IMG/VR virus record: IMGVR_UViG_3300031705_000001
Location: 62,001-126,000 of that record
Source of the DNA: a virus
Reading direction: 5' to 3' (one strand)
DNA length: 64,000 nt
Shown in pieces: positions 7,918-54,560 of the stretch (the first letter of the stretch is position 1; every line of letters starts with the position of its first letter). The notes under the pieces are model-generated. The model searched no databases. It had not been told where the DNA came from and was given only the letters and a program-made list of their open reading frames with translations. The position numbers were made by a program, and so were the translations under genes.

Positions 7918-8286
7918 ATGAAAACATTTAACAAATACATTGTCGAAGAATCTATTTCTGAAAACGATATGGAACTAATCAACGAAGGACTACAAGAAGA
8001 ATGGACTCCGGAATTAGAAGCTAGAATTGATGAAGCACTTGCTTTATTTGATGAGCAATACATGAATGAAGATGGTACATATGACATCGAAAGCTTTAAC
8101 GAAGAAATAACTAATGAAGGATTCTTTGGATCTATTATTGGTGGTCTTACTGGATTTGCACTAGGTAAATCAGTTGGTAAGATGGTTGCTAAAGTCCTTG
8201 GTATACAAAAGGGTATTATTTACGATTTATTAACCTCAAGACTTGTTGGTGCCGCATTAGGTGCTAGTCTTGGTAAAAGAATATAA
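7918..8286 (+). CDS. Small protein with capsid-targeting-like N-terminus
   Basis: The 122-residue protein starts MKTFNKYIVEE, close to the MKTYQEFI-E leader of T4 internal head proteins. Acidic stretches follow (residues ~12-62) with several (I/L)xE sites (ELINEG, EITNEG), then a Gly-rich hydrophobic C-terminal half (SIIGGLTGFALGKSVG, LVGAALGASLGK) that resembles the glycine-zipper segments of membrane-active peptides. A reasonable guess is an internal head protein processed by the prohead protease, with a membrane-inserting C-terminal piece; this is inference. It directly abuts the RuvC-like gene. Confidence 0.6.
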   Translation: MKTFNKYIVEESISENDMELINEGLQEEWTPELEARIDEALALFDEQYMNEDGTYDIESFNEEITNEGFFGSIIGGLTGFALGKSVGKMVAKVLGIQKGIIYDLLTSRLVGAALGASLGKRI

Positions 8287-8937
8287 ATGAATTACTTAGC
8301 AGTAGACTTTTCCCTCAATTCCCCTGGAATATGCATATATAATGATAAGAGTAAGAACTTTCATTTTATTAGTTACATAAAACCCAAAACAGGTACTAAA
8401 GCAGAACAGAGACTTCAAGAAGAGATATCATTATTTAGTGATGTTACTTTAGTGAGCCAACCAGATTTTACAAATAAAGAATCATTCTCAAGTGCAGAAC
8501 TTTTAAAGATCAAGCGTTATGATAAGATGGCTGATGATATTATTAATTTAGTATTACAGAACTCTCATGATGGTGATGGTTTTACTATAGCATTTGAAGG
8601 TACTTCTTATGGTTCTAAAATGGGAACTAACAATATGATTGACATGGCGGCTGGCGCTGCAATCCTCAAACTTAAACTTTTAAGAACTTTAAATCCAGAA
8701 GATATTCTAACTGTTGCTCCAACCACTATTAAGAAATTTGCTGGTAAAGGTAATATGAATAAGCTTCAATTATTTGATGCCTTTCAGCAAAATGTGAACG
8801 AAGACCCAGTCTTGGCTAAAAGCCCTTTGTGGAAATACGTTAAAGGTTTGGAAGTTGAAAAGAAGATCCCAAAACCATTGGACGATTTGGTGGATGCTTA
8901 TTTCTTAGTTGCATACATATCTACACCTCAAGCCTAA
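8287..8937 (+). CDS. RuvC/RNase H-fold Holliday junction nuclease-like protein
   Basis: The 216-residue protein opens with a typical RuvC-type first strand (LAVDFSLNSPGICIY, Asp7), has a second acidic motif at IAFEGTSYG (Glu104) and a C-terminal Asp-rich helix PLDDLVDAYFLVAY that would supply the last metal ligands. The TVAPTTIKKFAGKG segment corresponds to the KPSTVKKALTG-type basic region of RuvC proteins. It probably resolves branched DNA before packaging, the job of the unrelated gp49 in T4. It starts at the base after the previous stop. Confidence 0.7.
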   Translation: MNYLAVDFSLNSPGICIYNDKSKNFHFISYIKPKTGTKAEQRLQEEISLFSDVTLVSQPDFTNKESFSSAELLKIKRYDKMADDIINLVLQNSHDGDGFTIAFEGTSYGSKMGTNNMIDMAAGAAILKLKLLRTLNPEDILTVAPTTIKKFAGKGNMNKLQLFDAFQQNVNEDPVLAKSPLWKYVKGLEVEKKIPKPLDDLVDAYFLVAYISTPQA

Positions 8938-9036
8938 TCTATCTTTGACTTTAAGACATTTATTATATGCACGTGGCGCAAAACTGTTTCATAATTACTA
9001 AAAAATAATTAAAAAATAATTAAATAGGCTAGTTTT

Positions 9037-9064
9037 GAAACAAACAGAAAGTGTGATATATAAT
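9037..9064 (+). promoter_or_regulatory. GAAACA-N16-TATAAT promoter for the 60-aa gene
   Basis: GAAACA at 9037-9042, a 16-nt spacer, and TATAAT at 9059-9064, with the next ATG at 9097. The -10 is embedded in a GATATATAA sequence (9055-9063), so the site reads as both promoter classes. The region 8940-9096 has no gene and is otherwise AT-rich, with an inverted copy of the box (GTTTCA) at 8986-8991. Confidence 0.6.
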
Positions 9065-9096
9065 AGGTAGTTAGCAAGATTAACTAAAATATTAAT

Positions 9097-9279
9097 ATGC
9101 AAAAACTAGTTACAATAGATTACTTCCACCTTAATAAGGTTCTCATAAAAATGGTGAGAAATAACCAGCTTAGTCAAACTGAGCGCGAAGAGTTATTACA
9201 CAAATCTGGACTGATTAAGTCAGAGAACGGAAAGTGGAAAGAAGATAATGGAGCTATTTTAACCATGGATAATAAATAA
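9097..9279 (+). CDS. Small hypothetical protein upstream of gp32
   Basis: A 60-residue, highly charged protein (MQKLVTIDYFHLNKVLIKMV...) with a helical N-terminal half and no recognised domain. It has its own promoter-like element and precedes gp32, whose own promoter overlaps the intergenic gap. Coding is supported by clean spacing and an A-rich leader; function is unknown. Confidence 0.55.
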   Translation: MQKLVTIDYFHLNKVLIKMVRNNQLSQTEREELLHKSGLIKSENGKWKEDNGAILTMDNK

Positions 9280-9281
9280 GT

Positions 9282-11338: not shown

Positions 11339-11547
11339 TAGATATTAACAACATGGTTGAAGACAGTTTTGATGAATTTCAAAAGGACAGTGACAGATTT
11401 AAAGGCATGAAACTCATGATAGATTTTCAGTCATTAGATCTTAGCGTCAATGCCCCAGAAATTGCATTTCCAAAACCTAAATTTAAGAAGAGGCATATTA
11501 CTTCAACATTTATAAAACCTAACCCCAACAAGAAATCATTATTTTAA
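11326..11547 (+). CDS. Small protein with clamp-binding-like C-terminus
   Basis: A 73-residue protein overlapping the primase by 13 bp and lying one base before the uvsY-like gene. The N-terminal half is acidic and helical, the C-terminal half basic, and it ends in NPNKKSLF. Similar LF-ending tails occur on the polymerase C-half, RNase H and the gp33-like protein in this window, so clamp (gp45) binding is a reasonable guess. I recognise no family. Confidence 0.55.
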   Translation: MVRLIDINNMVEDSFDEFQKDSDRFKGMKLMIDFQSLDLSVNAPEIAFPKPKFKKRHITSTFIKPNPNKKSLF

Positions 11548-11548
11548 T

Positions 11549-13542: not shown

Positions 13543-15129
13543 ATGCAAAAATTAAAATCTTTTGAACAATATGCCACAGAGGCAAAGATTTCAAATGCTA
13601 GAACAGTAGAAGAAGACGCTTCTACAAAAAGATCAAACGAAGCAGAAACTTACAAGAATTTATTATCTGAATTCAAAGTTACATCTGTAAAAGAATTAAC
13701 AGAAGATCAAAGATCTGATTTTTTCATCAAGCTAAGGGATTCAGAAGTTAATGAAGCACTTTCACTTATTGAAGAAGGTACAAGAGGTCAGTTTGGTAAA
13801 ATTGACAAAAAAGGTAATATCACTTCAGTTTATACTCATTATGATTCATATCCAGAAAACATTTTACCACTTCTTCAAAAAGATTACAAAAACGGTAAAA
13901 ACGTTGACGATGTAATTAAAAGAGGAGATAGTTCTGGTTTAGATGCTATGAATAAAATGAATTTCTATGGAGATAATAGTAAACCATCTACAGGAAGCAT
14001 ATCTAATATTTCTAAATATCTAAGAGATGCAAATGATAAAGGTGGAGCAGAATTTGTTTATTTATGGGATGAAGGTAATAAAGAATGGTTAATGGCAGAT
14101 CTTTACGGTAAAGGTCACGATGACGTATATCCTGCATTCGAATCACTTTCAGCTTCAGTAAATGAAGCAATTAAAGTAGAATATAAAAGAGACGCTAAAA
14201 AAGTAGCTACTGTTTATAATAATTTATTCGCTAAGAAATTAACTGATTTAGGTGCAATGTCTAAAGAAGGTAAATTAGGTTGTATTAAATACTTATTTGA
14301 AATGGCAATGGAAGACGCAAACTTTTCAAGAGAAGGTTTCAAGATTTCTAAAAACATTAAAGGATCAATTAAAAGCTTTGAAATTAAAATGTCAGGCTTA
14401 GGTAATTATTTCGTTAAGATTGGTGCAACAACAACTAAGAGAGTATTAGATCAATATTATTCAGATCTTGCAAATGCAGCAAGTTGGGCAGGTATTAGTA
14501 TTGTAGAAGGTACAGCACTTTATTTAGAGAGCATGAAAGAAGAAGCAGCAGGTCAATCATTATTAAATGCATTTAATATGGCATTTGAAGGTAATGAAAA
14601 TATATGCGAAGCAACTGCAGTAATGGATGCAATTGATCCTAAATCTAAAGGACTTGCAAAATTACTAAAGAAGAATAAAGTTACAATGGAAATATTGGAT
14701 ATGAACGGACCATCTGGTCATCCAGAAGTTGAACTTACAGGAAAAAGAAAAGATATAACAGCAGTACTCGCAGATGACGAATATGGATGGGATGACGCTG
14801 ACTTGGCAGAATACATCGAAGAATCTAAAGTCAATGAAGATATTAAGTGTTCAAATAAAAAAGGACATTCATATAAAGAAATAGACAAAGACGGAACAGT
14901 AGAATGTGAACACTGTGGTTTAAGAAATTCATTATCGGAAGCAGAAATTACTGAAGCTGAAGTTTCTTCAATTGAAGACTTTCAAGAATATGCAACTACT
15001 GTATTGAAAAAAGCATTCGGTGAAGAATTTGACGAAGCAAAGGCACAAAAGGTAATTGATGGCATTTTAGCTAAATCTGATGGAGATTACGGAACAGCAG
15101 TTGGAATCTTAACAAACTCATTAGGTTAA
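13543..15129 (+). CDS. Internal head protein candidate with targeting peptide
   Basis: An in-frame upstream extension to 13480 would overlap uvsW; the ATG at 13543 has the usual A-rich leader and gives 528 residues starting MQKLKSFEQYATEAK, the shared targeting-type peptide. Many (V/I/L)xE sites follow (e.g. KVNEDI, EITEAE). Near residues ~440-470 a likely zinc ribbon appears (CSNKKGH ... CEHCGL). The body is soluble, helical and of no family I know. Size and leader suggest a large protein packed into the prohead and perhaps injected. Confidence 0.65.
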   Translation: MQKLKSFEQYATEAKISNARTVEEDASTKRSNEAETYKNLLSEFKVTSVKELTEDQRSDFFIKLRDSEVNEALSLIEEGTRGQFGKIDKKGNITSVYTHYDSYPENILPLLQKDYKNGKNVDDVIKRGDSSGLDAMNKMNFYGDNSKPSTGSISNISKYLRDANDKGGAEFVYLWDEGNKEWLMADLYGKGHDDVYPAFESLSASVNEAIKVEYKRDAKKVATVYNNLFAKKLTDLGAMSKEGKLGCIKYLFEMAMEDANFSREGFKISKNIKGSIKSFEIKMSGLGNYFVKIGATTTKRVLDQYYSDLANAASWAGISIVEGTALYLESMKEEAAGQSLLNAFNMAFEGNENICEATAVMDAIDPKSKGLAKLLKKNKVTMEILDMNGPSGHPEVELTGKRKDITAVLADDEYGWDDADLAEYIEESKVNEDIKCSNKKGHSYKEIDKDGTVECEHCGLRNSLSEAEITEAEVSSIEDFQEYATTVLKKAFGEEFDEAKAQKVIDGILAKSDGDYGTAVGILTNSLG

Positions 15130-15148: not shown

Positions 15149-16432
15149 ATGAAACAATTTCTATCATATCAACAATTTCTAGTTGAAAAAGTAAACGTAT
15201 CTATATTAGACGACTTAATTGTTGAAGGCGGTGCAGCAGGACACATGTCGCATCCTTTCGATGAAAGAGATTTAACATTTGGAGACTTTAAAGAGATCAT
15301 AAGTGCAGGACTTTCTGGTAATTTAACATTCGATGAAGAGCCTACAGAAAAAACGGATGGTCAAAATGTATTCGCTACAGTACAAGACGGAGAAGCTAAA
15401 TTTGCAAGAAACAAAGGTGATATGAAATCTCCAATGTCGTTAGCAGATTTTAAACAGAAGTTTGAAGGACATCCTAGTCCATTAGTACAAGATACATTTC
15501 AATTTGCTGCTGAAGATTTAGCACAAGCATTGATAAAATTACCAAGTAAAGATTTAGAAGTGTTTAACAACGGTAAGAGTTTCATGAATATGGAATTGAT
15601 TTACTCTAAGAACCCTAATGTAATTTACTATGATCGCGATATAATCCAATTTCATGGAATTAAGCACACTGACGGTGAAGGTAATATAATCGGTGACGAT
15701 AACAAATATGCATCTTCAATTGCTAAAGCTCTACAAAAAGTTAAGGCAGATGTTGGTAATACATTTACTGTAATTCCACCCCAAATCGTTAAGATAGGAA
15801 AGGATATTGATTTTGAAAAGAACAAAGATAAATTCATCAAAAAAGTAGAAGACTTAAAAGCTGTATATAAATTAACAGATGCTGATGAAGTTTCTAGATA
15901 TCACGAAATGTGGTGGAGAGATCAAATAGAATCTAATTTCCCAGATATATCGCAAGATCAAAAAGAAGGTCTATTATTAAGATGGGCATATGGTGATAAA
16001 AAGACGCTTAATTTAAGATCTCTTGATAAAGATCTTGGAAAAGATAAAGCAGCAGCCATTAAGAAATTTGACAAGGAAGATGTTAAAAAGAAATACAAAG
16101 AAAACATTAGACCTTTCGAGGATTTATTCTTAGAACTTGGAAGTGTTATTCTTAAAAATGTAAGTAACTTTGTTGCTGCAAATCCAAGTGATGAAATGCA
16201 AAGGTTACATACTCAAATTAGAACAGAGGCTGACAAGGTTAAAAAGGGTGGAGATATTAAACAAATAGAGAAAGTTGTTTCAGAACTTGAAAGACTTGAA
16301 CGAATCGGAGGTATTGAATCTATTATACCAACTGAAGGTATTGTTTTCATATATAAAGGTAAAACAATGAAACTTACAGGAACATATGCTGCGATAAATC
16401 AGCTAATGGGTATTATAAAATACGGTAGATAA
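15149..16432 (+). CDS. DUF6267-like nucleotidyltransferase with targeting peptide
   Basis: The 427-residue protein opens MKQFLSYQQFLVEK and then has an LIVEGG site suited to the prohead protease. The segment AGHMSHPFDERDLTF is typical of a phage family I recall as DUF6267. It carries covalent-nucleotidyltransferase (ligase) motifs: EKTDGQN with Lys68 as motif I, NMELIYSKNP as a motif III-like part, TEGIVFIYKG as motif IV and KTMKLTG as motif V. It probably adenylylates itself and joins or caps a nucleic acid; the substrate is unknown. The leader implies a particle-borne enzyme. It precedes a second ligase-like gene. Confidence 0.65.
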   Translation: MKQFLSYQQFLVEKVNVSILDDLIVEGGAAGHMSHPFDERDLTFGDFKEIISAGLSGNLTFDEEPTEKTDGQNVFATVQDGEAKFARNKGDMKSPMSLADFKQKFEGHPSPLVQDTFQFAAEDLAQALIKLPSKDLEVFNNGKSFMNMELIYSKNPNVIYYDRDIIQFHGIKHTDGEGNIIGDDNKYASSIAKALQKVKADVGNTFTVIPPQIVKIGKDIDFEKNKDKFIKKVEDLKAVYKLTDADEVSRYHEMWWRDQIESNFPDISQDQKEGLLLRWAYGDKKTLNLRSLDKDLGKDKAAAIKKFDKEDVKKKYKENIRPFEDLFLELGSVILKNVSNFVAANPSDEMQRLHTQIRTEADKVKKGGDIKQIEKVVSELERLERIGGIESIIPTEGIVFIYKGKTMKLTGTYAAINQLMGIIKYGR

Positions 16433-16479: not shown

Positions 16480-18327
16480 ATGGCTTTACAAAACTTAAGA
16501 ACGTATTATCAATCATCTAACATCAATGACTTCGTGTCAATGTTAGATATTCCATGTGTCGTATCAGAAAAGATACAAGCGTCATCTTTCCATGTTAAAA
16601 GAACTAAAACAGGGTTTGAATACTTCAAAAGTGGTTCAAAACATGCAATGGACAGAGTAGACAGGACGATGATTAAATACTATGAAAGTGGTATTAAGTA
16701 TTTCAATACTATATTAACAGAATTGACTGAAGATATGCCATTGGATTGGAAGTTTGGATTTGATTATATGTTAGATAATAAAACGGTAGATATTGAATAC
16801 GATGCTTTACCCAAAAATCATTTAATATTAACACATATTCAAATATTAAAACCAAATGATTTAACACAAGTCAAAAAGGTTATTAGAGATCCTGTTATTT
16901 TAAATAAATGGGCAGATCTATTAGGAGCACAAAGACCTCCTGTTATATTCCAAGGTAAACTACAATCTAATCAAAAGGATGATCTACTTAATCTTCTAGA
17001 AATATCAGATAAAGATTTTGAAATCAAATACGGATCACAATCTTTTACAAGAACAATATACAACATATTCAACAATGGACTTAATACTCCAGCGTTAAAT
17101 CATTCATTAGATAATGACATTGATGGTTTAATAATTAATTTCTCTGATGGTAAAGGCATGAAAAGCTTTAAATTGGAGAGATTTGATAGAAAGCCACAAG
17201 AAGCAAGAAAACCATCTGATATGTACCAACTTTCAATTTTGGATTTGGTAGAATTTATTACTGCGTTTGACATTACTGCTATTAAGTTAGAAGAAGAAGA
17301 GGCTGATTCAAGATACATTGAAATAATCTCTAATATATTTAATGCGTATGTTGAAAAGAACGCAACAAAATATGTCGGCACTAATTTCAACTCTGCAGAT
17401 TTTTCAGAAAGGAAAGGTTTTGAACTTAATAAAGTATTCATAAAAAATGAAAAGACTTTATCATTAGTTCAGAATGAAATCTTATCAGAATTATTTAAAA
17501 TTGCTTTAGGCAGTTTTAGAAAAACAAGACACAAAGAAACTGACATCATTAATAAAGATTTAATGAATCAGATCAATTCAATAGTAGATGCTATTGAAAC
17601 GTCAGTTATGGCGAAAACCAATGAAAATGATGTTATGAACTTTAAATCATATTTAGTTAATCAAAAACTGCAGTATACAGAAACTCCAATATTAGAAGCA
17701 TTGACAGTTAATTATCCAGAACAAGGTAAAACACCAGTTAACATGTTTGTTGGTAGATTTCAACCGTTTACATTAGGACATATTAAAGTTATAGAAACAA
17801 TTCACAAACAGAATGGATTTCCTGTTGTAATATTCTTAGTTAAGTCTAAGACTAAAAAAGCAGAAGATGCATTTAAGAGACCATTCGACGAAGAAACACA
17901 AGTCGAAATGATTAAGAATCTAAAAAGCAAATATCCTATAGAAGAAGTATTTGTAATACCGACAGGCGGAATTGATCACATGTTTAATGCAATGAGACCT
18001 AAATACGAACCAGTATTATGGGGAACTGGAAGTGATAGAATGAAAACTTATGGATTCCAAGTAAATAAAGATTCTTATAGAGAAGATCTTGGCGTTAGAC
18101 CTGATTTCGGATTATATGAAATACCAAGAACAGGTAAAAACATTTCAGCAACACAGGTTAGAAACGCAATGTTAGATGACGATGAGAAGTTGTTTAAGAA
18201 GCTTACACCGAAACCAATACATAACATGTATAAAGAATTAAAAGCTAAATTAGAAGAGTCCATGGGAGTCGTAACAGAATCAGAAGACGACACTTTGACA
18301 TTTGATGAATTTATCAAAAATATATAA
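16480..18327 (+). CDS. RNA ligase-like / NMN adenylyltransferase-like fusion
   Basis: This 615-residue protein joins two enzymes. Residues ~1-250 look like an RNA ligase: SEKIQASSF with Lys31 as nucleotidyl acceptor, KFGFDYM as motif III-like, DIDGLIINF (~210-218) as motif IV and KSFKLERFD as motif V. Residues ~420-595 match the NMN/nicotinate adenylyltransferase fold: GRFQPFTLGHI (the T/H-x-G-H nucleotide motif) and ISATQVR near 565 (the ISSTxxR motif). Between them is a helical linker. T4-like phages carry both activities separately, for RNA repair and NAD recycling. It ends DEFIKNI, odd in resembling the targeting peptide. Confidence 0.75.
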   Translation: MALQNLRTYYQSSNINDFVSMLDIPCVVSEKIQASSFHVKRTKTGFEYFKSGSKHAMDRVDRTMIKYYESGIKYFNTILTELTEDMPLDWKFGFDYMLDNKTVDIEYDALPKNHLILTHIQILKPNDLTQVKKVIRDPVILNKWADLLGAQRPPVIFQGKLQSNQKDDLLNLLEISDKDFEIKYGSQSFTRTIYNIFNNGLNTPALNHSLDNDIDGLIINFSDGKGMKSFKLERFDRKPQEARKPSDMYQLSILDLVEFITAFDITAIKLEEEEADSRYIEIISNIFNAYVEKNATKYVGTNFNSADFSERKGFELNKVFIKNEKTLSLVQNEILSELFKIALGSFRKTRHKETDIINKDLMNQINSIVDAIETSVMAKTNENDVMNFKSYLVNQKLQYTETPILEALTVNYPEQGKTPVNMFVGRFQPFTLGHIKVIETIHKQNGFPVVIFLVKSKTKKAEDAFKRPFDEETQVEMIKNLKSKYPIEEVFVIPTGGIDHMFNAMRPKYEPVLWGTGSDRMKTYGFQVNKDSYREDLGVRPDFGLYEIPRTGKNISATQVRNAMLDDDEKLFKKLTPKPIHNMYKELKAKLEESMGVVTESEDDTLTFDEFIKNI

Positions 18328-18346: not shown

Positions 18347-19792
18347 ATGGATACATTTGACAATCACATAAATGAAAATTTCGAAGTACATTATTCTGAT
18401 GGGATAAGAGCTGCAAAAAAGTTTAAATCAGAAAAAGATGCAAGAGCATTCATGTCTGATGCTATAGAAAACAAAAAAGGTTTACAAGAAATTGCAATTT
18501 ACAAAGCAGGTTCTGGATTCCATTCTACTGCAGATACTAAGGCAGTTATTTCTTTTTGGGGAGAAGGTTCTTATTTAGATAACGTTTCTAAAAAAGATTC
18601 TAAATTAGCAGCTAAGAAATTAGAAGAGTCATTAACTGAAAGACACATCACAGTAAAACGAAAGTATACTGAAAATCACCCAGCAGTTAAAGTTGGTAAA
18701 GCAGCTAAAATCAGAAACAAAGTTTTAGAAGCTATCAAAGATGGTAAAATTACCAAAGAAGAATTCAATACGATTTTAAGAGAAATGACTACGGATTCTG
18801 GCAGATGGATGAGAAGAAACTCTACTTATTTAAATGTAAGCGAAGATGGAATTACACTTTCTAAAACAGGTAAAAGAGTACTTAACGAATTAACTCCGGT
18901 TATAAATACACCAGATATTAATGAAAAGGCAAGTGCTTTTAAAATAGCAAATGCAAATGCAGAAGAAATATTCGGAGAATTCGGAATAGCAACATTATCA
19001 TATGATGAGATTGCAAGAGTAATAAACATAAAGAGAGCTGACAAATTAGCCAAAAAATACGGTGAAGACAGTTTTATGGCATTAACCGAATTAGATATGG
19101 AAGAGCTTTTAAACAAGAATCCAAAATTAGTAATAGAAAATAAACAAAACAATAACATGAAAACAAATTTTATATTTGAAAGCTTTAAAGAATTCACAGA
19201 ATCTTTAAACGAGGCTACAAGAAGTCGTTTTAACATCAAGTCGTTAAAAATTGGAAAAAGACAATTTCCATTTCCAGGTATTAAAGAAACAGTAAAGTCA
19301 TTGTGGAATGAAGAAGTTGAAGATTATAAGAATCCAACTAGTATGGATTATATGAATAATCCTTCAGATTTAAAAAAGGTAAAATCAGCAATTTTAAAAG
19401 GTGTTAATGCTAACCTAAAGGAACAGATTCGTGCTGAATGGACAAATGGAGGCGAGGAGCTAGAACTTTCATTAGAATTGAAACATCGTGATTTCATTAG
19501 AGTTACATTAAGAACTGGTCGATTCCAAGAATATTGGAAAGATATGCTTAAAGCCGAAGTAATTTCTACTAGATATTCAGGTAGAGGTAACTATCCAGAA
19601 ACAACTGATGTTGGAAAGGGCTCAGTTTCACCAAATTCAATTATAATATATTTAAGAGAAGATGGCGAATATGGTAAGCAGATAAACCACATGCACCGCG
19701 CAGTATCGGACATTCTTGATGTATCGGAATCGGTTATTGATTTTTACAATGGTATACCTCAGATTGCAATAATTGGCTCAGAATCAGATTAA
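18347..19792 (+). CDS. Two-part targeting-peptide protein (possible internal start)
   Basis: The ATG at 18347 gives 481 residues starting MDTFDNHINENFEV; an upstream in-frame start at 18302 would overlap the previous gene. At residue 271 (ATG 19157) the frame passes through an A-rich, leader-like sequence (AAACAAAACAATAACATG) and begins a new targeting-type peptide, MKTNFIFESFKEFTESLNEA. The two halves look unrelated. Either this is a true fusion, a polyprotein cut at LNE-A, or a gene with an internal start giving a separate 211-residue product. Function unknown; presumed internal head protein. Confidence 0.6.
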   Translation: MDTFDNHINENFEVHYSDGIRAAKKFKSEKDARAFMSDAIENKKGLQEIAIYKAGSGFHSTADTKAVISFWGEGSYLDNVSKKDSKLAAKKLEESLTERHITVKRKYTENHPAVKVGKAAKIRNKVLEAIKDGKITKEEFNTILREMTTDSGRWMRRNSTYLNVSEDGITLSKTGKRVLNELTPVINTPDINEKASAFKIANANAEEIFGEFGIATLSYDEIARVINIKRADKLAKKYGEDSFMALTELDMEELLNKNPKLVIENKQNNNMKTNFIFESFKEFTESLNEATRSRFNIKSLKIGKRQFPFPGIKETVKSLWNEEVEDYKNPTSMDYMNNPSDLKKVKSAILKGVNANLKEQIRAEWTNGGEELELSLELKHRDFIRVTLRTGRFQEYWKDMLKAEVISTRYSGRGNYPETTDVGKGSVSPNSIIIYLREDGEYGKQINHMHRAVSDILDVSESVIDFYNGIPQIAIIGSESD

Positions 19793-19833: not shown

Positions 19834-20826
19834 ATGAAACACAAATTTTTATTCGAATCATTCGAAGAATTCACAGAATCTTTAAATGAATCATTTGCTT
19901 CAGCTATATTAGCGGGCATATTAACAGGTAAAGGCTCTAAAGCTGACAAATCATTAACTAAGGCATTTTATGGTAAAACTAAATTAGCGTTAGACAAAGT
20001 ACAAGATGAAGATATTATAGTGACTGATCCAATGACAGCATATAAAGAGAAGTCTGATAACGCAATCGTATTTTATATTTCAGATAATCAAAAAGAAAAT
20101 CCATATGCACCAAGCGACGCATACGAAAGTAGCAAAGTTATACCAGGTGGAGGTTATTTATTAGCACTTGCATCGGGAGATAATAGTTTTTATGAAAACA
20201 CATGGAAAAGAGGATTGATTAGAACAGGAAATAATCCAGCAGATTCCATAGGTATTTCTAAGAAGTATAAAGGTTGGGATGCAACGGGACTTTATAATGT
20301 TAAAAGAATTGCAGAAGTTGCTGATAGAGCAATTGTAATCAATTTAACATTATTACAACAAAAATATTCAACAGCGAACATAAGAGCTGAAAGAAATTCT
20401 GCTAAATCAGGTGCAATCGCATTCAAATCTGATAAAGATTTCAAATCTGATAACATGACAAGATACCAAGAAATTTTAGCAACTAAAGCTTCAAAATTAC
20501 CATTAGACAAAATGGTTGCAGATGCAATTGATTCATTAGCAGAACAAATCAAATCTGGATTAAAGTCTGGTGAAAAAACAAGATATGGTGATCCGATGAT
20601 TGGTAAATCATCAAAAGGTAAAGAAGTTAAATTAAGAGATGCTTCTCAGCACATGAACAATATATTAGATGACTACTCTAGATATGCTGATTATGTTAGA
20701 CAAGAAGAAGATGAAATCAAAGCATATGGTAAAGCTTCTAATTGGTATGGTAAATCTGCAAAAGAATATGCAAAAAGATGTGCTGATAATATCAAGAAAA
20801 TTGAAGACATGACATACGCTTGGTAA
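19834..20826 (+). CDS. Targeting-peptide protein, paralogue A
   Basis: A 330-residue protein starting MKHKFLFESFEEFTESLNES, nearly the same as the internal peptide of the previous gene. The LNE-S site would release the leader. The rest is clearly homologous to the next gene: an FYGKTKLALDKVQDEDII block, a block with TGLYNVKRIAEVADRA, then LTLLQQKYSTANIRAER and KDFKSDNMTRYQEI. I do not recognise the fold. Tandem duplication and leader suggest a packaged, diversifying internal protein. Confidence 0.65.
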   Translation: MKHKFLFESFEEFTESLNESFASAILAGILTGKGSKADKSLTKAFYGKTKLALDKVQDEDIIVTDPMTAYKEKSDNAIVFYISDNQKENPYAPSDAYESSKVIPGGGYLLALASGDNSFYENTWKRGLIRTGNNPADSIGISKKYKGWDATGLYNVKRIAEVADRAIVINLTLLQQKYSTANIRAERNSAKSGAIAFKSDKDFKSDNMTRYQEILATKASKLPLDKMVADAIDSLAEQIKSGLKSGEKTRYGDPMIGKSSKGKEVKLRDASQHMNNILDDYSRYADYVRQEEDEIKAYGKASNWYGKSAKEYAKRCADNIKKIEDMTYAW

Positions 20827-20858: not shown

Positions 20859-21908
20859 ATGAAACACATTAAATTATTTGAACAATTCATAAACGAATCA
20901 GATTCATCATTAAACGAAGCATTTGCTTCTACTAAATTAGCAAATATATTAACAGGTGCTAATAAATTACCAGAAGGTCTTCCAGCTGCATTTTACAAAA
21001 TGACTAAACTTAAATTAGATAAAATAAAAGATGAAGATATCATCGAATTGGATCCAATGGTTGCTAGGAGAGAAAAACGAGCAAACGCAGTATACATGTA
21101 CTTTGTAACAGATGAAAAAGAAAACGATTACCATATACAAAATCCATATGATAAAGATGAAGAAATATCAATATACAACGGTGGTATTATTCCAGCAAAT
21201 ACTTTATTGGCAATTACTAATGTAGATAATAAATGGATGAATATTGATTGGGCTAAAGATAATAAATACACACGACATGGTTCTAACCTTAAATATGCAA
21301 CTATTGTACCTGATGTTGATGGACATCAAGAACTTCAACAATCTAAAAGGAAAGATTCAGCAGGAATCGACAAAGGAAATACAGGTCTAGATACTGTTAT
21401 GAAAGTAGCAAGAACTGCAGATATATGCTATTGTCTTGATTTAGATATTCTTACTGCAAGATATTCTACGGTAAACCTTAAAGATGAAAGAAAAGCTGCT
21501 CAGAAAGGAGCAACTGCATTCATATCAGATAAAGACTTTAGAAAACAAACACATGCAAGATATCAAGATATCATAGCAGATCGAGCTCTTGCAATGCCAC
21601 TTGATAAGAAAGTTAAAGAAGCGACAGAATTAATAGGTGAGATTATTGCAAACGCAAATGCTCGCGGACATAGAGATTCGAAAGGTGATATTCTGATAGG
21701 TACTGGTAGCCATAAATATAAAATATCAGGTATTTTGCAACACATGGACTTTCTATTGAATAGATTTTCAACATATGTACATTACACTGATCTAGATGCG
21801 CACGAATATAACGCTGGTTATGATATGGCATATCATAAAAGAAATATAAAAGATTGTGCCAAGAAGGTTTGGGATAGTATTAAAGACATTAAAAGATACC
21901 AAAAATAA
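20859..21908 (+). CDS. Targeting-peptide protein, paralogue B
   Basis: A 349-residue paralogue of the preceding protein with leader MKHIKLFEQFINESDSSLNEAFAS. Shared blocks: FYKMTKLKLDKIKDEDII, TVMKVARTADICYCLDLDIL, ARYSTVNLKDERKAAQKGA and RYQDIIADRALAMPLDK. The conserved arrangement of charged residues (DERK, KDF-R) hints at a structured domain rather than a scaffold, but no catalytic motif is recognised. It is spaced 32 nt from its copy. Confidence 0.65.
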   Translation: MKHIKLFEQFINESDSSLNEAFASTKLANILTGANKLPEGLPAAFYKMTKLKLDKIKDEDIIELDPMVARREKRANAVYMYFVTDEKENDYHIQNPYDKDEEISIYNGGIIPANTLLAITNVDNKWMNIDWAKDNKYTRHGSNLKYATIVPDVDGHQELQQSKRKDSAGIDKGNTGLDTVMKVARTADICYCLDLDILTARYSTVNLKDERKAAQKGATAFISDKDFRKQTHARYQDIIADRALAMPLDKKVKEATELIGEIIANANARGHRDSKGDILIGTGSHKYKISGILQHMDFLLNRFSTYVHYTDLDAHEYNAGYDMAYHKRNIKDCAKKVWDSIKDIKRYQK

Positions 21909-22237: not shown

Positions 22238-23056
22238 ATGTCAGATATTAGCAAAAAATTAACAGAAACAGTTTCAACCGCAGCAATGTCAGGTATGGGT
22301 CCAGTAGAATTACCGGGCAACGGAACATTAGGTTCTGGTGATGTACCAGCTGGTAGTGGCGATGCCGAAGAAGAATATAAAAAGAAAAAGAAAAGAATGA
22401 AACACTTAAAAACATTAGAATCTTTCATATCAGAAGGAGTAAATCTTAAACAATCTCATTTGTCATCTGAAGATTATCAAAAAGCTAAAAAACTTAAAGG
22501 TTTTGATGAAGCTGATTGGGAATGGAACGGAGATAAAGGACTTTATTCTAAAGTAAACGAATCTAGAGTTGATAAAACTTCAGATCAAGATAGAATTTAT
22601 TATGACTTTCTATTAACACTAAGAGATTCTGGTAAAACCAATATGTTTGGTGCAGCTCCATATTTACAAAAAGAGTTTGATCTTAGTAAAAGCGAAGCAA
22701 GAAATGTATTAGCAGAATGGATGAAATCATTTAATGAATCTAAAGTTAATGAAGCAGATGCTCAAAAACCAAGAGGCATAGATCAATTTGCAGAAGATAT
22801 GGAATCTGATAAGATGAATCCAGAAATTCATTTAGCTACATTTAGTGGTAAATCATTCAAAGCACAATCAACTGATAAAACATGGGAAGACGGAGTACCT
22901 GTAACTAAGAACTTCACAAGAGGTGGTTATAAGTCTACGAGTCCTAAAGGAGAACACTATATAATTGAAACAGATAGATTCTGGTATTTCGTTATAGGAA
23001 GAATGTGGTTCGCTGTTAAAAGAGCAGATTACGGAACACCTCCATTTGAGTATTAA
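22238..23056 (+). CDS. Two-part protein with internal targeting peptide
   Basis: The 272-residue frame has a 53-residue front part (Gly/Pro/Ser-rich, ending EEEYKKKKKR) and then, at Met54 (ATG 22397), a targeting-type peptide MKHLKTLESFISEGVN. The A-rich run encoding KKKKK looks like the leaders of other genes here, so the 219-residue product may have its own start. Sites KVNESR and KVNEAD fit LxE-type cleavage. The C-terminal ~75 residues form a compact beta-rich, Trp/Tyr-containing domain (DRFWYFVIGRMWFAVKRADYG). Function unknown. Confidence 0.6.
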   Translation: MSDISKKLTETVSTAAMSGMGPVELPGNGTLGSGDVPAGSGDAEEEYKKKKKRMKHLKTLESFISEGVNLKQSHLSSEDYQKAKKLKGFDEADWEWNGDKGLYSKVNESRVDKTSDQDRIYYDFLLTLRDSGKTNMFGAAPYLQKEFDLSKSEARNVLAEWMKSFNESKVNEADAQKPRGIDQFAEDMESDKMNPEIHLATFSGKSFKAQSTDKTWEDGVPVTKNFTRGGYKSTSPKGEHYIIETDRFWYFVIGRMWFAVKRADYGTPPFEY

Positions 23057-33823: not shown

Positions 33824-33843
33824 ATAAATTAAAATATAATATT

Positions 33844-34572: not shown

Positions 34573-34591
34573 TACAAAATAATACAAAACA

Positions 34592-34643
34592 AAACAAAAT
34601 AATTATGAAACATGTAAAATTATTTGAAGCATTTGCTTCAACA
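34592..34643 (+). repeat. Repeated start cassette, copy 3 of 3
   Basis: Close match to 33499-33550 covering the A-rich leader and the codons for MKHVKLFEAFAST. Confidence 0.75.
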
Positions 34644-48911: not shown

Positions 48912-49250
48912 ATGAAAATTATTAAAACATTTGAAGACTTCATTACAGAAGATGCAATGAGAGCCGGAGAAGATTCCAAGATAATTATTGACGATATTAA
49001 ATTAGATTCAGGTTCTACTATAAAATCTGCAGAGATTTTAGGAGCTGTAACAGCATCAATGACTGACGATGAATTTAAACAATATTTTTATGATAGTTAT
49101 GGTGAAAACGCTTTCGCAGAAGGTGAAATTGACCAATTAGTTAAGATATACAATGATATAGCTGCAGAAGAACTAGAAGCTGAAAAAGAAGCTGAAAAGG
49201 AAGGCGGAGAAGGCGAAGAGGATGAAGAGGATCCATTAGCAGGATTGTAA
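48912..49250 (+). CDS. Prohead core protein (gp67/gp68-like) with targeting peptide
   Basis: A 112-residue protein between portal and protease, where T4 has gp67 and gp68. It starts MKIIKTFEDFITED, the targeting-type leader, and ends in a strongly acidic tail (AEELEAEKEAEKEGGEGEED...). gp67 of T4 is a small acidic core protein cut by gp21. This link between the leader and a bona fide core position is the best internal evidence that the shared peptide means prohead entry. GATATATAG lies 3 nt before the ATG. Confidence 0.7.
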   Translation: MKIIKTFEDFITEDAMRAGEDSKIIIDDIKLDSGSTIKSAEILGAVTASMTDDEFKQYFYDSYGENAFAEGEIDQLVKIYNDIAAEELEAEKEAEKEGGEGEEDEEDPLAGL

Positions 49251-49306: not shown

Positions 49307-51367
49307 ATGAAAAATACTAACGATTTATTAATCGTCGAGATGTCTTCATCAGCTCTAAGTGTAACAACTTCAGAGAACAAAGATTACATTCTTGAAGGTA
49401 TTTTTGGTCAAATCGATCAAAAAAACAAAAACAACCGTATATACACTGAGTCGGAGTATGTTCCACAAATTGAAGCATTACAAGCTAAAATTAAAGCTAG
49501 TAAGTTATTGGGCGAATTAGATCATCCTGCACAATTTGACATTTCTTTAAAGAATGTATCACATATCATTGAAGAACTTGTATATGACAAAGATAGTAAA
49601 GAAGTAAGAGGACGTATCAAATTATTAGATACAGACGCTGGAAGACAAGCTAAAGCTTTAGTAGATGCTGGTGTTCCTTTACAGATTTCATCTAGAGCTG
49701 CAGGTGCAGTTGAATCTAACGGACAAGTAAAGATTAAACAATTATTTACTTATGATCTAGTTGCTGATCCAGGTTTTGAAAACGCAGAGTTAAAGAGAGT
49801 TAACGAAACGTATGGTTATTCAAACGCAGGAAATTTAGCAATTTACGAAATGAATGGCACAGAAGCTATTGATAACCAACCTATTAAAAACACAAACACA
49901 CAAATAAAAGAAAATAAAAACATGGCAGAATTTGTAAAATCCGAGGATTTCAATAAGTACTCTGAGTATTTGGCGAATGAGATCAAGACATTAAAAGAAT
50001 CTATCGAAACTAAAAATGAAGAAGTTTCAGAAGATAAAACAGTACAAAACTTGAAAGATCATAGTGATCACGTTGTAGAAAACGTTAATCAATTAACAGA
50101 ATACGTAGAATACATCGCTGGTAAATTAGACGATAACATTCAATATTCTGAACATGTTGCTGAGAAAACAGATCAAAGTATTTCATATGCTGAATCTTTA
50201 GCAGAAACATTAGATAACAATATCTCTTATACAGAGCATGTTGCTGAAGCAGTTTCTAAAGTTAAAGACTTCGCTAATTATTTAGCAGAAGCACATAACG
50301 AAGGAAGTACTTCTCACGAATCTTTATTAGAGTATGTTGAATACTTAAAAGAAAACTTACAATCAGTTTCTGAATATGCAGAGTATATTGCAGAATCATT
50401 AAACGAAACAGTTATTGAAGTACCAGTTAACGCTGAAGCTGAAGAAACTGAAGAGGAAGAAGTTGAAGCAGCTGATAAAGTTGAAGGTGAAGAAGTTGCT
50501 AAAGAAGTAGCAGAAGCTGAAGCTCCTGCAAAAGACGCTGACGAAGCTGAAGAAACTGAAGAAATCGAAAACATCGGTGATAATTCTGAAGAAGGCGCAG
50601 TAGCTGCTGATTCTGATAAAGCTGGTAAAGAAGTTGAAGAAATCGAAGGTGAAGAAGTTGAAGCAGGAGATAATTCAAAAGAAGGTGATACTAAAGGTGA
50701 AGTAAATGGAGAAGACGCTGAAGATTTAGAATCTGACGCAATTAAATCTGATTCAGAAATTGAAGCAGAAACCAAAGCAGCTAAAGCTGGTGAAGGTGAA
50801 GAAGAAACTGAAGGTGAAGAAGGAGCATTAGATCCATTAGAATCTTACAAAAGCGAAATCTCATCTAAATTAGATAAATTAGTAGAAAATGCTACAGCAA
50901 AAGAAAATGAAAATCCTTCATTCTTTAGAGTTGTATCATCTACGACAAGAGAAAAGTATAACGCATTAAATGAATCAGCTAAAACAGAAGTTAGAAATAC
51001 AGTTTCTCAAAGAGGCTTTATGACTGAATCTGAAATCTCATCATTAATGAATAACGCAGAGCTTATTGTTGAAAACAAAGGTGCACAACCATTGTTTATT
51101 ACTGCAATGCCAGCGGAATACAGCGCAGCATGGGAAAACTTATCTGAATCTAAACAGAATCAAATAACAGCACAAGCTAAATACCACTCATTAAAAACTG
51201 AATACCAAGTTGCTAATTTCTGGCAAACTAGAGACTTAAGAGATACTAAAGTTGAAATGGAAAAAGTTGCAATGGTAACAGAATCTAAGGATGAAGCGCC
51301 TAAATCTACCATCGGTTACGATGTTACAGAAATGGCTGAAGCATTCAAAAAGAGATTTAACAAATAA
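49307..51367 (+). CDS. 21-22: Prohead protease-scaffold fusion (gp21 + gp22)
   Basis: One 686-residue frame. Residues 1-~195 are the gp21-type serine protease: LEGIFGQIDQKNKNNRIY, LLGELDHPAQFDISLKNVSHII (His in LDHP) and LQISSRAAGAVE (catalytic Ser in SSRA). An A-rich, leader-like stretch follows, then Met206 (ATG 49922) begins a scaffold: six 14-residue coiled-coil repeats (YxE-xx-AExL type, residues ~266-370, one spaced by an extra heptad), a Glu/Ala-rich acidic zone (~371-510) and a helical C-terminal domain. T4 makes gp21 (212) and gp22 (269) separately, so an internal start at 49922 giving a 481-residue scaffold is likely, as with lambda C/Nu3. Confidence 0.85.
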   Translation: MKNTNDLLIVEMSSSALSVTTSENKDYILEGIFGQIDQKNKNNRIYTESEYVPQIEALQAKIKASKLLGELDHPAQFDISLKNVSHIIEELVYDKDSKEVRGRIKLLDTDAGRQAKALVDAGVPLQISSRAAGAVESNGQVKIKQLFTYDLVADPGFENAELKRVNETYGYSNAGNLAIYEMNGTEAIDNQPIKNTNTQIKENKNMAEFVKSEDFNKYSEYLANEIKTLKESIETKNEEVSEDKTVQNLKDHSDHVVENVNQLTEYVEYIAGKLDDNIQYSEHVAEKTDQSISYAESLAETLDNNISYTEHVAEAVSKVKDFANYLAEAHNEGSTSHESLLEYVEYLKENLQSVSEYAEYIAESLNETVIEVPVNAEAEETEEEEVEAADKVEGEEVAKEVAEAEAPAKDADEAEETEEIENIGDNSEEGAVAADSDKAGKEVEEIEGEEVEAGDNSKEGDTKGEVNGEDAEDLESDAIKSDSEIEAETKAAKAGEGEEETEGEEGALDPLESYKSEISSKLDKLVENATAKENENPSFFRVVSSTTREKYNALNESAKTEVRNTVSQRGFMTESEISSLMNNAELIVENKGAQPLFITAMPAEYSAAWENLSESKQNQITAQAKYHSLKTEYQVANFWQTRDLRDTKVEMEKVAMVTESKDEAPKSTIGYDVTEMAEAFKKRFNK
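50102..50416 (+). repeat. 14-residue (two-heptad) coding repeats in the scaffold
   Basis: Successive units start at Tyr (or Phe) every 14 residues: YVEYIAGKLDDNIQ, YSEHVAEKTDQSIS, YAESLAETLDNNIS, YTEHVAEAVSKVKD, then one 21-residue unit, YVEYLKENLQSVSE and YAEYIAESLNETVI. The period of two heptads implies a long regular coiled coil. Confidence 0.8.
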
Positions 51368-51481: not shown

Positions 51482-52861
51482 ATGAATTTATTAAACGAAG
51501 CTGAGATCAAAAATACATGGGCACCGATAATCTCGGAAGCTACAGGTATTAACGAATCTAGCAAATTAGCATGGATGTCGACTTACTGTCACAACCATAA
51601 ACTTTACGAAGACGCGAACATCATGTCTTTAAACCCTAACATGAACTTAGCAGGTATGGGTGCAGTATCTTTCCCTTCAGCAGTATCTAACGGTGCAGCA
51701 GGTGGTGAAAATGGTTCTGGTGACAAGTCTCCGACTTTATTACCATTAGCAATGCAAGTAGCTGCTCAAACTATCGGTTTAGACTTAGTACCAGTAGTAC
51801 CAATGGCAGGACCAATGGGATTATTGTCTTACTTAGACTTTACTTACGAAGGTGGAAAAGTTGACGGAAACGTTACACCTACTTATATTAAAGGTGCAGT
51901 TGATGCAGTTGCTGCAGGTAACGATGTATTAGTTGGAACTTCTAGAATTGATGGAAAATCAATTATCAAAATTGTTGATGCATTAGACGGTGAAGCAAAT
52001 ATAGCTGCAAGATATGCAGGTGCTGAATTAGTTAAAGCTTTAGAAGATCACATTCCTGGATTCTCAGGTGCTGATGCAAACGATAAGCCAATGTCAAGAG
52101 ATCTTGGTGAATCTACTCCTGATAAAGTAATGGGTCTTTCTTTATTCTCTAAAAGTGTTGCTGCTGAAACTTTCCAAGTTGCTGCTGCAGTTACAAGAGA
52201 GCAAGTACAAGATTTAAAACAATTCGGTGTTGATGCTGTTGCTCAAGTAGAAGCAGTTTTAACTAACGAATTAACTCAATCTATCAATACTCACATTTTA
52301 TCTAAAATGAGATCTATTGCTGGTGAAGGTACTTTAGCTGGAAACTTAGAATTAGTTTACACTCAAGGTGGAAACACTTACGGTGATGTTAATAGAAGAA
52401 TCTTAACACACGTTTTAGCCGCTGCAAACTTAATTGCTAACAGAGGTAGAAGAGGTGCTGGTAACTTCGCTGTAGTTGATGCAAAAGTTGCTTCAGCTTT
52501 ACAAGGTGTTGCAGGATTTGTATCTAACCCAATGGCTAACACATTTAACCAAGTTGCAGGAGCAATCTACCCAGTAGGTTCTGTTGCTGGAATCAATGTT
52601 TACACTGATCCTAACATGGCTTTCGAAGGTGTTACTGCTGGAGGTAAAACTACACATGAAGTATTAGTTGGTAGAAAAGGTGATGGTAACGGTGCTGGAT
52701 TAATTTTCATGCCTTACTTAATGGCTGAATCAGTTCAAATGATCGCAGAAGGAACAATGGCTCCGAAAGTAGCTGTTAAATCTAGATACGCATTAGTTGA
52801 AGCTGGATTCCACCCAGGTACACAATACGAAAAATTCTATGTTGAAGGTTTAGCACTATAA
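51482..52861 (+). CDS. 23: Major capsid protein (gp23)
   Basis: A 459-residue HK97-fold protein with T4-type blocks: AWMSTYCHNHKLYEDANIMS near the N-terminus, LLPLAMQVAAQTIGLDLVPVVPMAGPMGLLSYLDF, REQVQDLKQFGVDAVAQVEAVLTNELTQSIN, and a C-terminal SRYALVEAGFHPGTQYE. It is shorter than T4 gp23 (521). PIISE-A near residue 20 fits the protease consensus and would give a short N-terminal removal, versus 65 residues in T4. GC content is locally higher and codons look more optimal than in neighbours, as expected of the most abundant protein. Followed by a strong terminator. Confidence 0.95.
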   Translation: MNLLNEAEIKNTWAPIISEATGINESSKLAWMSTYCHNHKLYEDANIMSLNPNMNLAGMGAVSFPSAVSNGAAGGENGSGDKSPTLLPLAMQVAAQTIGLDLVPVVPMAGPMGLLSYLDFTYEGGKVDGNVTPTYIKGAVDAVAAGNDVLVGTSRIDGKSIIKIVDALDGEANIAARYAGAELVKALEDHIPGFSGADANDKPMSRDLGESTPDKVMGLSLFSKSVAAETFQVAAAVTREQVQDLKQFGVDAVAQVEAVLTNELTQSINTHILSKMRSIAGEGTLAGNLELVYTQGGNTYGDVNRRILTHVLAAANLIANRGRRGAGNFAVVDAKVASALQGVAGFVSNPMANTFNQVAGAIYPVGSVAGINVYTDPNMAFEGVTAGGKTTHEVLVGRKGDGNGAGLIFMPYLMAESVQMIAEGTMAPKVAVKSRYALVEAGFHPGTQYEKFYVEGLAL

Positions 52862-52891
52862 TCTTAAACTAGAATAATTAATATTATTATT

Positions 52892-52921
52892 AAAAGGTCA
52901 TCTTCGGATGACCTTTTTTTT
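52892..52921 (+). terminator. Rho-independent terminator after the capsid gene
   Basis: An 11-bp stem AAAAGGTCATC / GATGACCTTTT capped by a stable TTCG tetraloop and followed by more T. Confidence 0.95.
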
Positions 52922-52947
52922 GTTGTAAACTTTCCAAAATTAAATTA

Positions 52948-52956
52948 GATATATAA
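52948..52956 (+). promoter_or_regulatory. Late promoter GATATATAA
   Basis: An exact copy between the capsid terminator and the next gene, 35 nt before its ATG. Confidence 0.6.
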
Positions 52957-52991
52957 TATAATAATGCTAAATAGAAAATAAAATAACAATT

Positions 52992-54560
52992 ATGAAATTA
53001 AAATCTAAATTAAAGCTTTACGAACAATTCGTAAACGAGAACATGCCAACGAACAAGTCGGTTGATCAAGTATCTATTGACACTGTAACTCCAGGCGACA
53101 CAGTTAGAACTGAAGTAATAAGAGACGTTGATACAATTCTAAATACACTGACAGAATTATCTGATAGAATTGGAACAGTTGGTGAATCTACTGAATTAGA
53201 ATCAGAAATTAATGATCTTTTTGAAGAACTTTTTGAATTAACTAATCTTACTTCGGTTAATGAAGGTTTATTAGATTTTATAAAATCTCCAATTAAATTC
53301 ACAAAAATTAAAGCTAACCTTAAAAAATATCAGAAAGCATTAGTTCAATCTGCAATTAATGATCTTGATTTTGCAAAGAAAAAGGAAGCTACAAAAGAAA
53401 AAACAGATGCAGCTGATTGGAAAAAGAAATTAGAAGTTCTTAATCAAGCAAATAAAGCTAAAAATCAAGCACTTTCAGATCAGTCTTCTGCCATAAGCGA
53501 CAGAATTAAAGAATTAACTGGCGGTGATGAAGGTTTAGCTAAAGTCGCTAGCTTAGGTAAAACTAAAGCTAAATTAATAGCTGCTAAAACAGTTATGAAA
53601 GCAACATCAGGTGAAGAAGCTAAACAACTTAAATTAGAAATTTCTACACTAGAAGATAGAATTGCTGATGATACTCAATCATTAAAGGATTATACATCAG
53701 CACAGGGTGATGCTCCAGCTGCTGAACAAACACCGGCAGAAGCAGAAGCTGCTGCAGATGCAAAATCAAAATCTCAGATGTCTGATAAAGATGATGCTAA
53801 AAAGGTACCAGCTGCAAATGATGACGAAGCCACTGCTAAAAAAGCTGATGATAAAAAGAAAAAAGAGGAAAAAGACGCAGCTGATAAGGTAAAGGCTGAT
53901 GAGAAGAAAGAAGCTGCAAAAGTTGCTGTTGAAGCAGCGCAAACTAAATATGATGAAGCAAAGGACGGTGATGATGAAGCTAAAAAATTAACAGCTAATG
54001 TTGAATTATTAAAAGCAAAATTAAAACAAGATGATGTTGATGGTAGTGATGACTTAGAAAAAAGTAAAAAACTAGTAGCTGATTTAGGAAAAGCACAAGA
54101 AGATTTAAAAGCACTAAGCGGATCTAAGAATCTTAAAGTTGCAACAAAACCCGTAGATAAAGATGGAAAGCCTATCGTGCCTAAAACACCAAATGAAAAC
54201 GAATCATTAGATACACCAACTGGTGATGATCTTAATGAAGCGACATTATCAGGATTACAATCATATTCAGATGAAGAAGACGAAGATGGAAAACCAGATT
54301 ATTCTTATATTAAAGATAAAGGTAAAGAAATTGGAGTTGAAGTTACTATAGATATTGATCCATTCGGAGACGGTTATGATGAAATGACAATGACCGGTGA
54401 TAAAGGTTCTATTATGAAACTAGCCGGTATGACAGGTCATGCTGATTTCGTTAAAGACGGAACATATGAAATAGAAGAATCAGTTGCAGTAGAATTACCT
54501 AAAACTATTAAATTAGATGAAGGTTTAACAATCGCTCAACGATTCGCAAAATTAATGTAA
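52992..54560 (+). CDS. Large Ala/Lys-rich targeting-peptide protein
   Basis: A 522-residue protein starting MKLKSKLKLYEQFVNEN. SVNEGLLDF (~residue 93) fits LxE-type cleavage. Residues ~95-230 form helices (IKANLKKYQKALVQSAIND ...), residues ~235-400 are a low-complexity Ala/Lys/Asp/Glu coiled region, and the C-terminal ~110 residues are a folded domain (EIGVEVTIDIDPFGDG ... KLAGMTGHADFVKDG). A second internal protein or decoration/core protein is likely given its place after gp23 under a late promoter. No T4 name can be assigned. Confidence 0.65.
   Translation: MKLKSKLKLYEQFVNENMPTNKSVDQVSIDTVTPGDTVRTEVIRDVDTILNTLTELSDRIGTVGESTELESEINDLFEELFELTNLTSVNEGLLDFIKSPIKFTKIKANLKKYQKALVQSAINDLDFAKKKEATKEKTDAADWKKKLEVLNQANKAKNQALSDQSSAISDRIKELTGGDEGLAKVASLGKTKAKLIAAKTVMKATSGEEAKQLKLEISTLEDRIADDTQSLKDYTSAQGDAPAAEQTPAEAEAAADAKSKSQMSDKDDAKKVPAANDDEATAKKADDKKKKEEKDAADKVKADEKKEAAKVAVEAAQTKYDEAKDGDDEAKKLTANVELLKAKLKQDDVDGSDDLEKSKKLVADLGKAQEDLKALSGSKNLKVATKPVDKDGKPIVPKTPNENESLDTPTGDDLNEATLSGLQSYSDEEDEDGKPDYSYIKDKGKEIGVEVTIDIDPFGDGYDEMTMTGDKGSIMKLAGMTGHADFVKDGTYEIEESVAVELPKTIKLDEGLTIAQRFAKLM

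Follow-up and report, generated by a model that had tools for sequence, protein, structure and literature searches.

The internal proteins IPII and IPIII of bacteriophage T4 carry a capsid-targeting sequence (CTS), a short N-terminal peptide which starts with MK, sits on unlike bodies, ends in F-I-x-E-A and is cleaved by gp21. T4 Ip1-3 are reported to block GmrSD restriction enzymes (PMC12373910), and a 2023 review of the T4 head calls the localisation of certain proteins to the scaffolding core still mysterious (PMC9958956). Here we describe a comparable peptide, the leader, in a 64,000-base stretch of DNA (the window; bases 62001-126000 of the 149,989-base IMG/VR virus record IMGVR_UViG_3300031705_000001) from an uncultured T4-like phage. 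The leader is shared by many otherwise unlike proteins, and it is very probably a CTS-like capsid-entry tag, removable by protease, which serves a large and modular set of head cargo.

The likeness to T4 extends to an S77 protease and to the gene order portal, slot, protease, capsid, where the slot is the position of T4 gp67/68. An earlier note on this DNA had compared the leader with those of the T4 internal proteins. The layout agrees: ipII and ipIII, as read from NC_000866, begin MKTYQEFIAEA, and by eye MK and F-I-x-E-A are common while the core differs (KLFExF here, TYQEF in T4). This phage also differs from T4 in having far more cargo proteins and strings of modules, and its tag is placed more widely, being found on the gp67/68-slot gene as well as within proteins and at their C termini.

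Three related phenomena are already known, namely propeptides in giant phages, a packaging signal in P1 and polyvalent proteins with multiple domains. In the giant phages SPN3US and phiKZ, several head proteins have propeptides that are removed by a protease, and ejection proteins are described (PMC5694885, PMC10052503). In the accessible text on SPN3US, however, two propeptides are 20-24 residues long and the rest 111-254, cutting follows AxE, no single short motif is described as common to all propeptides, and only the protease has a C-terminal one. In phage P1, which belongs to a different phage group, the N-terminal 30 residues of DarB carry a reporter into the capsid, but the authors saw no consensus in the N termini of the Dar proteins (PMC9024508). 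Polyvalent proteins of phages and conjugative elements have multiple domains, many are predicted to be packaged and injected, and some are proteolytically processed, although the proposed cutting there is by the protein's own peptidase domain (PMC5512222), whereas here we find a shared tag and LxE borders of the prohead-protease type. As in polyvalent proteins, several unlike domains can share a polypeptide here, in the protein starting at window position 16480 (ligase and NMNAT) and in the modules of the 13543 family. In the parts of the literature that were available, our search found no paper describing cargo that carries a common tag at either end, or strings of cargo with prohead-protease sites at their borders.

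The leader family and its LxE end

The earlier note had listed 13 leader starts in the window and a looser one at 18347; all 14 coordinates are an ATG that opens a frame with the leader or a variant of it. We scored leaders with an 11-column matrix, using cut-offs of 8 and 12 bits. Nine window sites reach at least 8 bits (13543, 20859, 21916, 22397, 33512, 34267, 34605, 48912 and 52992) and the looser ones fall below (7918, 15149, 18347, 19157 and 19834), with similar leaders kept in homologues of 7918 and 15149. The bodies are mostly unrelated, as had been claimed, the exceptions being 19834/20859 (homologous) and 33512/34267 (weakly alike). The following genes begin with a leader (others are given in later sections; a slash marks a candidate cut):

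7918..8286, + strand, 122-aa protein with the loose leader MKTFNKYIVEE; compared loci have six homologues, most with similar leaders
19834..20826, + strand, 330-aa protein, leader MKHKFLFESFEEFTESLNE/S; shares a homologous body with 20859
20859..21908, + strand, 349-aa protein, leader MKHIKLFEQFINE/S, then SLNE/A; leader at least 8 bits
21916..22236, + strand, 106-aa protein, leader MKRTKLYEEFISKKTVTE/G; leader at least 8 bits
33512..33823, + strand, 103-aa protein, leader MKHVKLFEAFASTVNE/A; leader at least 8 bits
34605..34889, + strand, 94-aa protein, leader MKHVKLFEAFASTLNE/K; leader at least 8 bits

The 7918 protein has a sub-threshold glycine zipper match. Within window 33480-34640, the leader and about 20 nt of A/C-rich upstream DNA are near-identical at 33512, 34267 and 34605, and at 34267 the upstream stretch is translated in frame as KQNKTI. 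Beyond the window, the record has seven more leaders (record positions 10600, 13796, 14962, 23892, 24589, 25007 and 25356), that at 14962 being internal to a longer open reading frame (ORF). The whole record has 16 sites of at least 8 bits, plus several looser ones, and a narrow DNA pattern gives 9 forward matches over it with 0 reverse and 0 control matches. Also outside the window are a leader-tagged GNAT protein at 25007-25354 (L004:1152-1499) and a leader-tagged ATP-grasp-like protein at 10600-11553 (L001:1501-2454); here and below, L### labels compared loci and G### compared records.

Chance is excluded as the source of this family. To lessen circularity, a separate matrix was trained on 158 leaders from pattern-fetched loci and tested on 853 proteins from the source record and from loci fetched by the major capsid protein (MCP), some training loci being on the same contigs as test loci. 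At least 12 bits were scored at the N terminus by 64 of the 853, whereas the three controls (reversed proteins, shuffled proteins and an interior window) gave none; at least 8 bits were scored by 70, vs 0, 1 and 0 in these controls, respectively. A full matrix, trained on 209 leaders drawn from the same 2637 non-redundant ORFs that it scored, gave 348 N-terminal scores of at least 12 bits vs 0 reversed and 0 shuffled. Internal matches at this level numbered 36 vs 3 reversed and 4 shuffled, and some of them are ORFs whose start was called too far upstream.

The earlier note's claim that an LxE follows the leader was borne out: [LIVMF]xE stands exactly at the leader end in 155/209 leaders, even though the search pattern made no demand for E, and E is the third residue after the core F in 78% of the 209. 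The next residue is Ala in 40/155 (26%) and Ser in 27/155, and the background for Ala after such triplets elsewhere is 7.6%. Bodies of 360 leader proteins fell into 276 clusters by a crude 4-mer measure. When 104 leader proteins were aligned (101 of the first 120 of the 276 cluster representatives and three added by hand), MKxIKLFExFxNE and little else was common to them. The 360 leaders have 331 distinct DNA forms, with all six Leu codons used at the L position. Because codons vary freely, and because there are copies where no start codon is needed, we regard the tag as a protein-level signal.

Association with the head genes

The window contains a T4-type head cluster in which the gp67/68 slot is filled by a leader gene:

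47292-48884, portal
48912..49250, + strand, 112-aa protein, leader MKIIKTFEDFITE/D; lies between portal and protease, which is the T4 gp67/68 slot
49307..51367, + strand, S77 prohead protease, matched over residues 27-138 and continuing into a long C-terminal region that is scaffold-like; PF03420 1.9e-11, phrog_207
51482..52861, + strand, MCP with N-terminal LNE/A, ISE/A, INE/S and LYE/D motifs; phrog_138
52992..54560, + strand, 522-aa product of the gene that follows the MCP, with leader MKLKSKLKLYEQFVNE/N

The protease scores 44.3 bits against PF03420, for which the cut-off is 27. We compared this cluster across 86 related loci, a set in which near-identical loci were kept and at least two records are present twice (L087/L242, L080/L248). 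A protease is present in 84/86, and 83 of these have an ORF directly upstream, i.e., in the gp67/68 slot. The earlier note had placed one leader protein in that position, and the slot ORF begins with a leader of at least 8 bits in 81/83 loci (the rows shown hold 42 distinct slot-protein N termini, with one, L081, below 8 bits). The leader is therefore tied to prohead assembly.

LINE/A-, I[SE]E/A- and KLYE/DA-like motifs are found near the N terminus of the capsid protein in nearly all relatives listed. In a phage collection, the nearest relative by capsid protein is LR756500 (51% identity), followed by Lak phages at 37% and by PTm1, a Tenacibaculum phage, at 32%. Since these nearest capsid proteins are from Tenacibaculum and Prevotella phages, the host may belong to the Bacteroidota. 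The window protein is 100% identical in two further IMG/VR contigs, L016 and L017. A cargo module is present inside the protease-scaffold ORF of L074 and L218; in L074:3505-5709, it sits between LVTE and an acidic stretch.

Tags inside proteins, at C termini and in module strings

The tag also occurs inside proteins and at their C termini, sometimes without a start Met. Leaders that had been called internal in the window are in frame with no intervening stop, and the C-terminal tags, together with the module structure described below, go beyond what the earlier note had seen. The internal cases in the window are:

18347..19792, + strand, 481-aa protein in two parts, the first beginning with the loose leader MDTFDNHINE and the second with an in-frame leader at 19157
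19157..19219, + strand, internal leader MKTNFIFESFKEFTESLNE/AT, in frame also in L141, L097 and L105
22238..23056, + strand, 272-aa protein, N part ending GSGDVPAGSGDAEEEYKKKKKR, then an internal leader
22397..22441, + strand, internal leader MKHLKTLESFISE/G
33844..34572, + strand, 242-aa two-part protein with an internal leader at 34267; same fusion in L250, another contig
34267..34314, + strand, internal leader MKHVKLFEAFVANINE/A, with an in-frame AAACAAAACAAAACAATT stretch before it

The 19157-type leader lacks its Met in L254, and the genes are separate in L180. In the family of the 22238 protein (GSGDVPAG...KKKKK), the tag is internal in the window (22397), L141, L251, L206, L254 and L122, C-terminal in L132, and C-terminal without Met in L131. 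The AAACAAAACAAAACAATT stretch also sits 5' of the leader genes neighbouring 34267. Assembly error is unlikely to have produced these fusions, since all three recur in a second contig (G012, L249/L250) and some are in frame in more distant relatives.

Two neighbouring genes bear on the earlier suggestion that the cargo includes an RNA-ligase-like enzyme:

15149..16432, + strand, 427-aa ligase-like protein with a loose leader; invariant leader sites, weak fold match
16480..18327, + strand, 615-aa RNA-ligase-2-like and NMNAT/PPAT-like protein by fold, no N-terminal leader
17626..17661, + strand, internal tag-like segment NDVMNFKSYLVN (residues 383-394) between the two enzyme domains, then PILE/AL
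18292..18324, + strand, C-terminal tag TLTFDEFIKNI (residues 605-615) with VTE/S before it

The 16480 protein is predicted to join an RNA-ligase-2-like enzyme to an NMNAT-like one. For its N half, the best Foldseek match is T4 Rnl2 (1.6e-7, probability 1.00; template modelling score of the whole alignment low), so the fold supports an RNA ligase 2-like nucleotidyltransferase, and the C half has a predicted fold like NMNAT/PPAT. EKIQASS at residues 30-36 resembles ligase motif I. In the predicted model, each tag position has a short helix next to a linker of low confidence. The first helix (388-395) lies in the low-confidence linker between the domains, and the tag-like segment there is followed by PI[LT]E/AL in closer relatives. 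The C-terminal end reads VTE/SEDDTLTFDEFIKNI, and a C-terminal tag is present in 11/15 family members with a complete C terminus; the four without it are distant (22-25% identical), although L187, one of these, contains LFNEFVKE close to the C terminus. Two relatives, L251 and L137, lack the NMNAT domain; what is absent begins at the LxE between the domains and stops at the LxE that precedes the C-terminal tag. In L137, NMNAT is instead encoded separately and has an N-terminal leader itself.

In the 15149 family, leader residues F10 and E13, a second site (E26-G27-G28) and EKTDG are invariant in 11/11 aligned members, and the linker is variable. Residues 65-213 match many RNA ligases at Z 5-6.5, which is below the Z 8 caution line, and the best Foldseek E value is a weak 0.22. 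Microcystis phage Mel-JY01 has, in place of the leader, an NMNAT-like domain ahead of the 15149-type domain, with NIIAE/GG at the junction. The suggested RNA-ligase-like enzyme is therefore supported by fold in 16480, which has its tag at the C terminus, and more weakly in 15149.

Some long proteins have sequences that suggest polyproteins, made up of exchangeable modules with LxE at the borders. The example in the window is:

13543..15129, + strand, 528-aa predicted polyprotein with an N-terminal leader and at least five modules; phrog_1987

Its module borders are VNE/A, IEE/G, ICE/A and ITE/A. No Pfam family was found in it at E 0.01, and the published polyvalent domain set itself was not searched. 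Modules of this type are rearranged at LxE: some relatives have them in another order (L180 vs the window, L115 vs L199), more have them in other combinations, and in L154 and L157 they occur as short leader proteins. Strings with a repeated short module are present in L105:7370-9787 and L176:8331-11006 (GNAFGDAVRKAK... / GRAFVAAAKKAK...), with E before each copy. We tested the borders of nine modules, which were chosen by the analyst and with one N-terminal instance omitted. For eight of them, [LIVMF]xE stands at the module start in 70/77 instances vs 17.6% of windows in the same proteins. An E before a module is partly kept by homology, so the informative part is the differing left neighbours.

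Cargo, competing explanations and significance

Leaders are widespread among the 19 records compared, a set chosen by the analyst (the source record, 13 reached via the capsid protein and five via the leader). The DNA pattern matches in 17/19, with one control match overall; for example, G008 has 17 matches, G015 has 13 and the 482-kb G016 has 38, and the named record LR756500 has two. A phrog_207 match is present in 18/19, G018 being the exception. Loci L096-L213 were obtained by leader pattern, among the matches listed, and counts on them are not a census.

Few of the 104 leader proteins scanned match Pfam: GNAT 4, Acb1 3, ATP-grasp models up to 3, AAA models 2-3, and NMNAT, CHAP, lysozyme and others 1 each. 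Leader-tagged 2H phosphoesterases, like anti-CBASS Acb1 and 2'-5' RNA ligases, are found at L184:979-1518, L117:3747-4295, L245:3684-4226, L163:2-478 and L237:9555-10097 (the last with a loose leader). The Acb1-like proteins have at least two HxT motifs, and one of three scanned singly exceeds the Acb1 cut-off (28.3 vs 27). The L117 protein had no PDB sequence match, and PADLOC gave weak single matches only.

We infer docking, cleavage, packaging and injection as follows. The MK-x-[IV]-K-[LT]-F-E-x-F-[ILV] segment would dock a protein to the growing prohead core, and the S77 prohead protease would then cut after the adjoining [LIV]xE, freeing mature cargo inside the head, from which it would presumably be ejected with the DNA. 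Either terminus would be a usable place for the tag, as would the stretch between two cargo domains. Part of the cargo would consist of polyproteins whose exchangeable modules have LxE sites between them, and several proteins would therefore be delivered per entry event. By analogy with T4 Ip1-3, the cargo may act in early takeover or counter-defence.

Other explanations account for less of this evidence. The shared 5' end could be a translation-start or mRNA element (an A-rich start and first codons) with no role for the peptide, and it is true that about 20 nt upstream of the ATG are common to 33512, 34267 and 34605, and that a Shine-Dalgarno-like core lies within 20 bases upstream at only 1/14 sites. 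We rejected this very improbable explanation because there are Met-less, internal and C-terminal copies and because codon choice is free, with synonymous codons in the leader varying roughly as elsewhere; the E and the residue after it also show protein-level preferences. Equally hard to credit is an origin of all leader proteins by ancient duplication within one family, with bodies now too divergent to be recognised as related and the leader left as a relic. Some neighbours are indeed paralogous (19834/20859, and weakly 33512/34267), as is a repeated body family in G018, but related bodies can have a leader, have a C-terminal tag or lie inside a polyprotein, and simple paralogy was rejected as a general account given the 276 crude body clusters and matches to unlike Pfam families (GNAT, ATP-grasp, 2H phosphoesterase, AAA, NMNAT).

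Docking to a structure other than the prohead core (e.g., tail or baseplate, membrane or replication compartment) is unlikely. It would fit the single leader proteins which match lysozyme, CHAP or tail-lysozyme families, as well as G018, where leaders mostly lack E and no gp21-type protease was detected. However, the slot gene carries the leader in 81/83 loci, LxE stands at the leader end, and a cargo module can lie within the protease-scaffold ORF. The earlier note's capsid-targeting reading thus remains the best supported, resting on the leader-end LxE, the S77 protease, the slot gene and T4 ipII/ipIII, and its interpretation as a whole is supported in part.

Several observations weigh against capsid targeting or its modular extension. 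E is absent from the site in 22% of the 209 leaders, and in many homologues of 52992 the core is retained but the E is gone, with several below 8 bits. In the head cluster of G016, the gp67/68 slot contains no ORF. G018 (L236-L238), a 182-kb record with 24 leader-pattern matches on both strands, has neither a phrog_207 nor a phrog_138 match (no T4-type protease or MCP model), and its leaders in the 60 kb read (three stretches) are MKYLKLFENF, mostly without E; G018 may be fragmentary or may have another kind of system. Many G018 leaders are on a repeated paralogous body (KNYTINPDGSIDVDG...). The DNA leader pattern is absent from 5/6 named records (T4, PTm1, Lak-A2, Mel-JY01 and P-SSM2). Reversed module order was found in only two protein pairs by a strict all-against-all test, and the ninth module tested, NMNAT, has the strict border in 1/14 instances and misses it in 13/14, an [LIV]xE ending 5-12 residues further upstream in 12/14 (PILE/AL, VNE/AL, FISE/A). 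Finally, a literature search covering few subscription papers found no published virion mass spectrometry for a leader phage.

In our judgement, there is about an even chance that this group of uncultured T4-like phages, including the 482-kb one, has a plug-in cargo system, in which proteins of any function are delimited by LxE, carry a removable docking tag at either end and, as polyproteins, are cut by the prohead protease in the head. Such phages would carry tens of ready-made proteins, including RNA-ligase-like and NAD-synthesis-like enzymes and, in relatives, an Acb1-like 2H phosphoesterase, perhaps countering host defences from the first moment of infection. Leaders also allow predictions of which uncharacterised phage proteins are packaged, and the module strings give precise ones of mature N termini. 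With hundreds of natural examples, a variable position, a conserved core and exchangeable cargo, the family provides a direct consensus for possible core recognition. If the tag works at either end, it would also be a design rule for loading proteins into phage heads.

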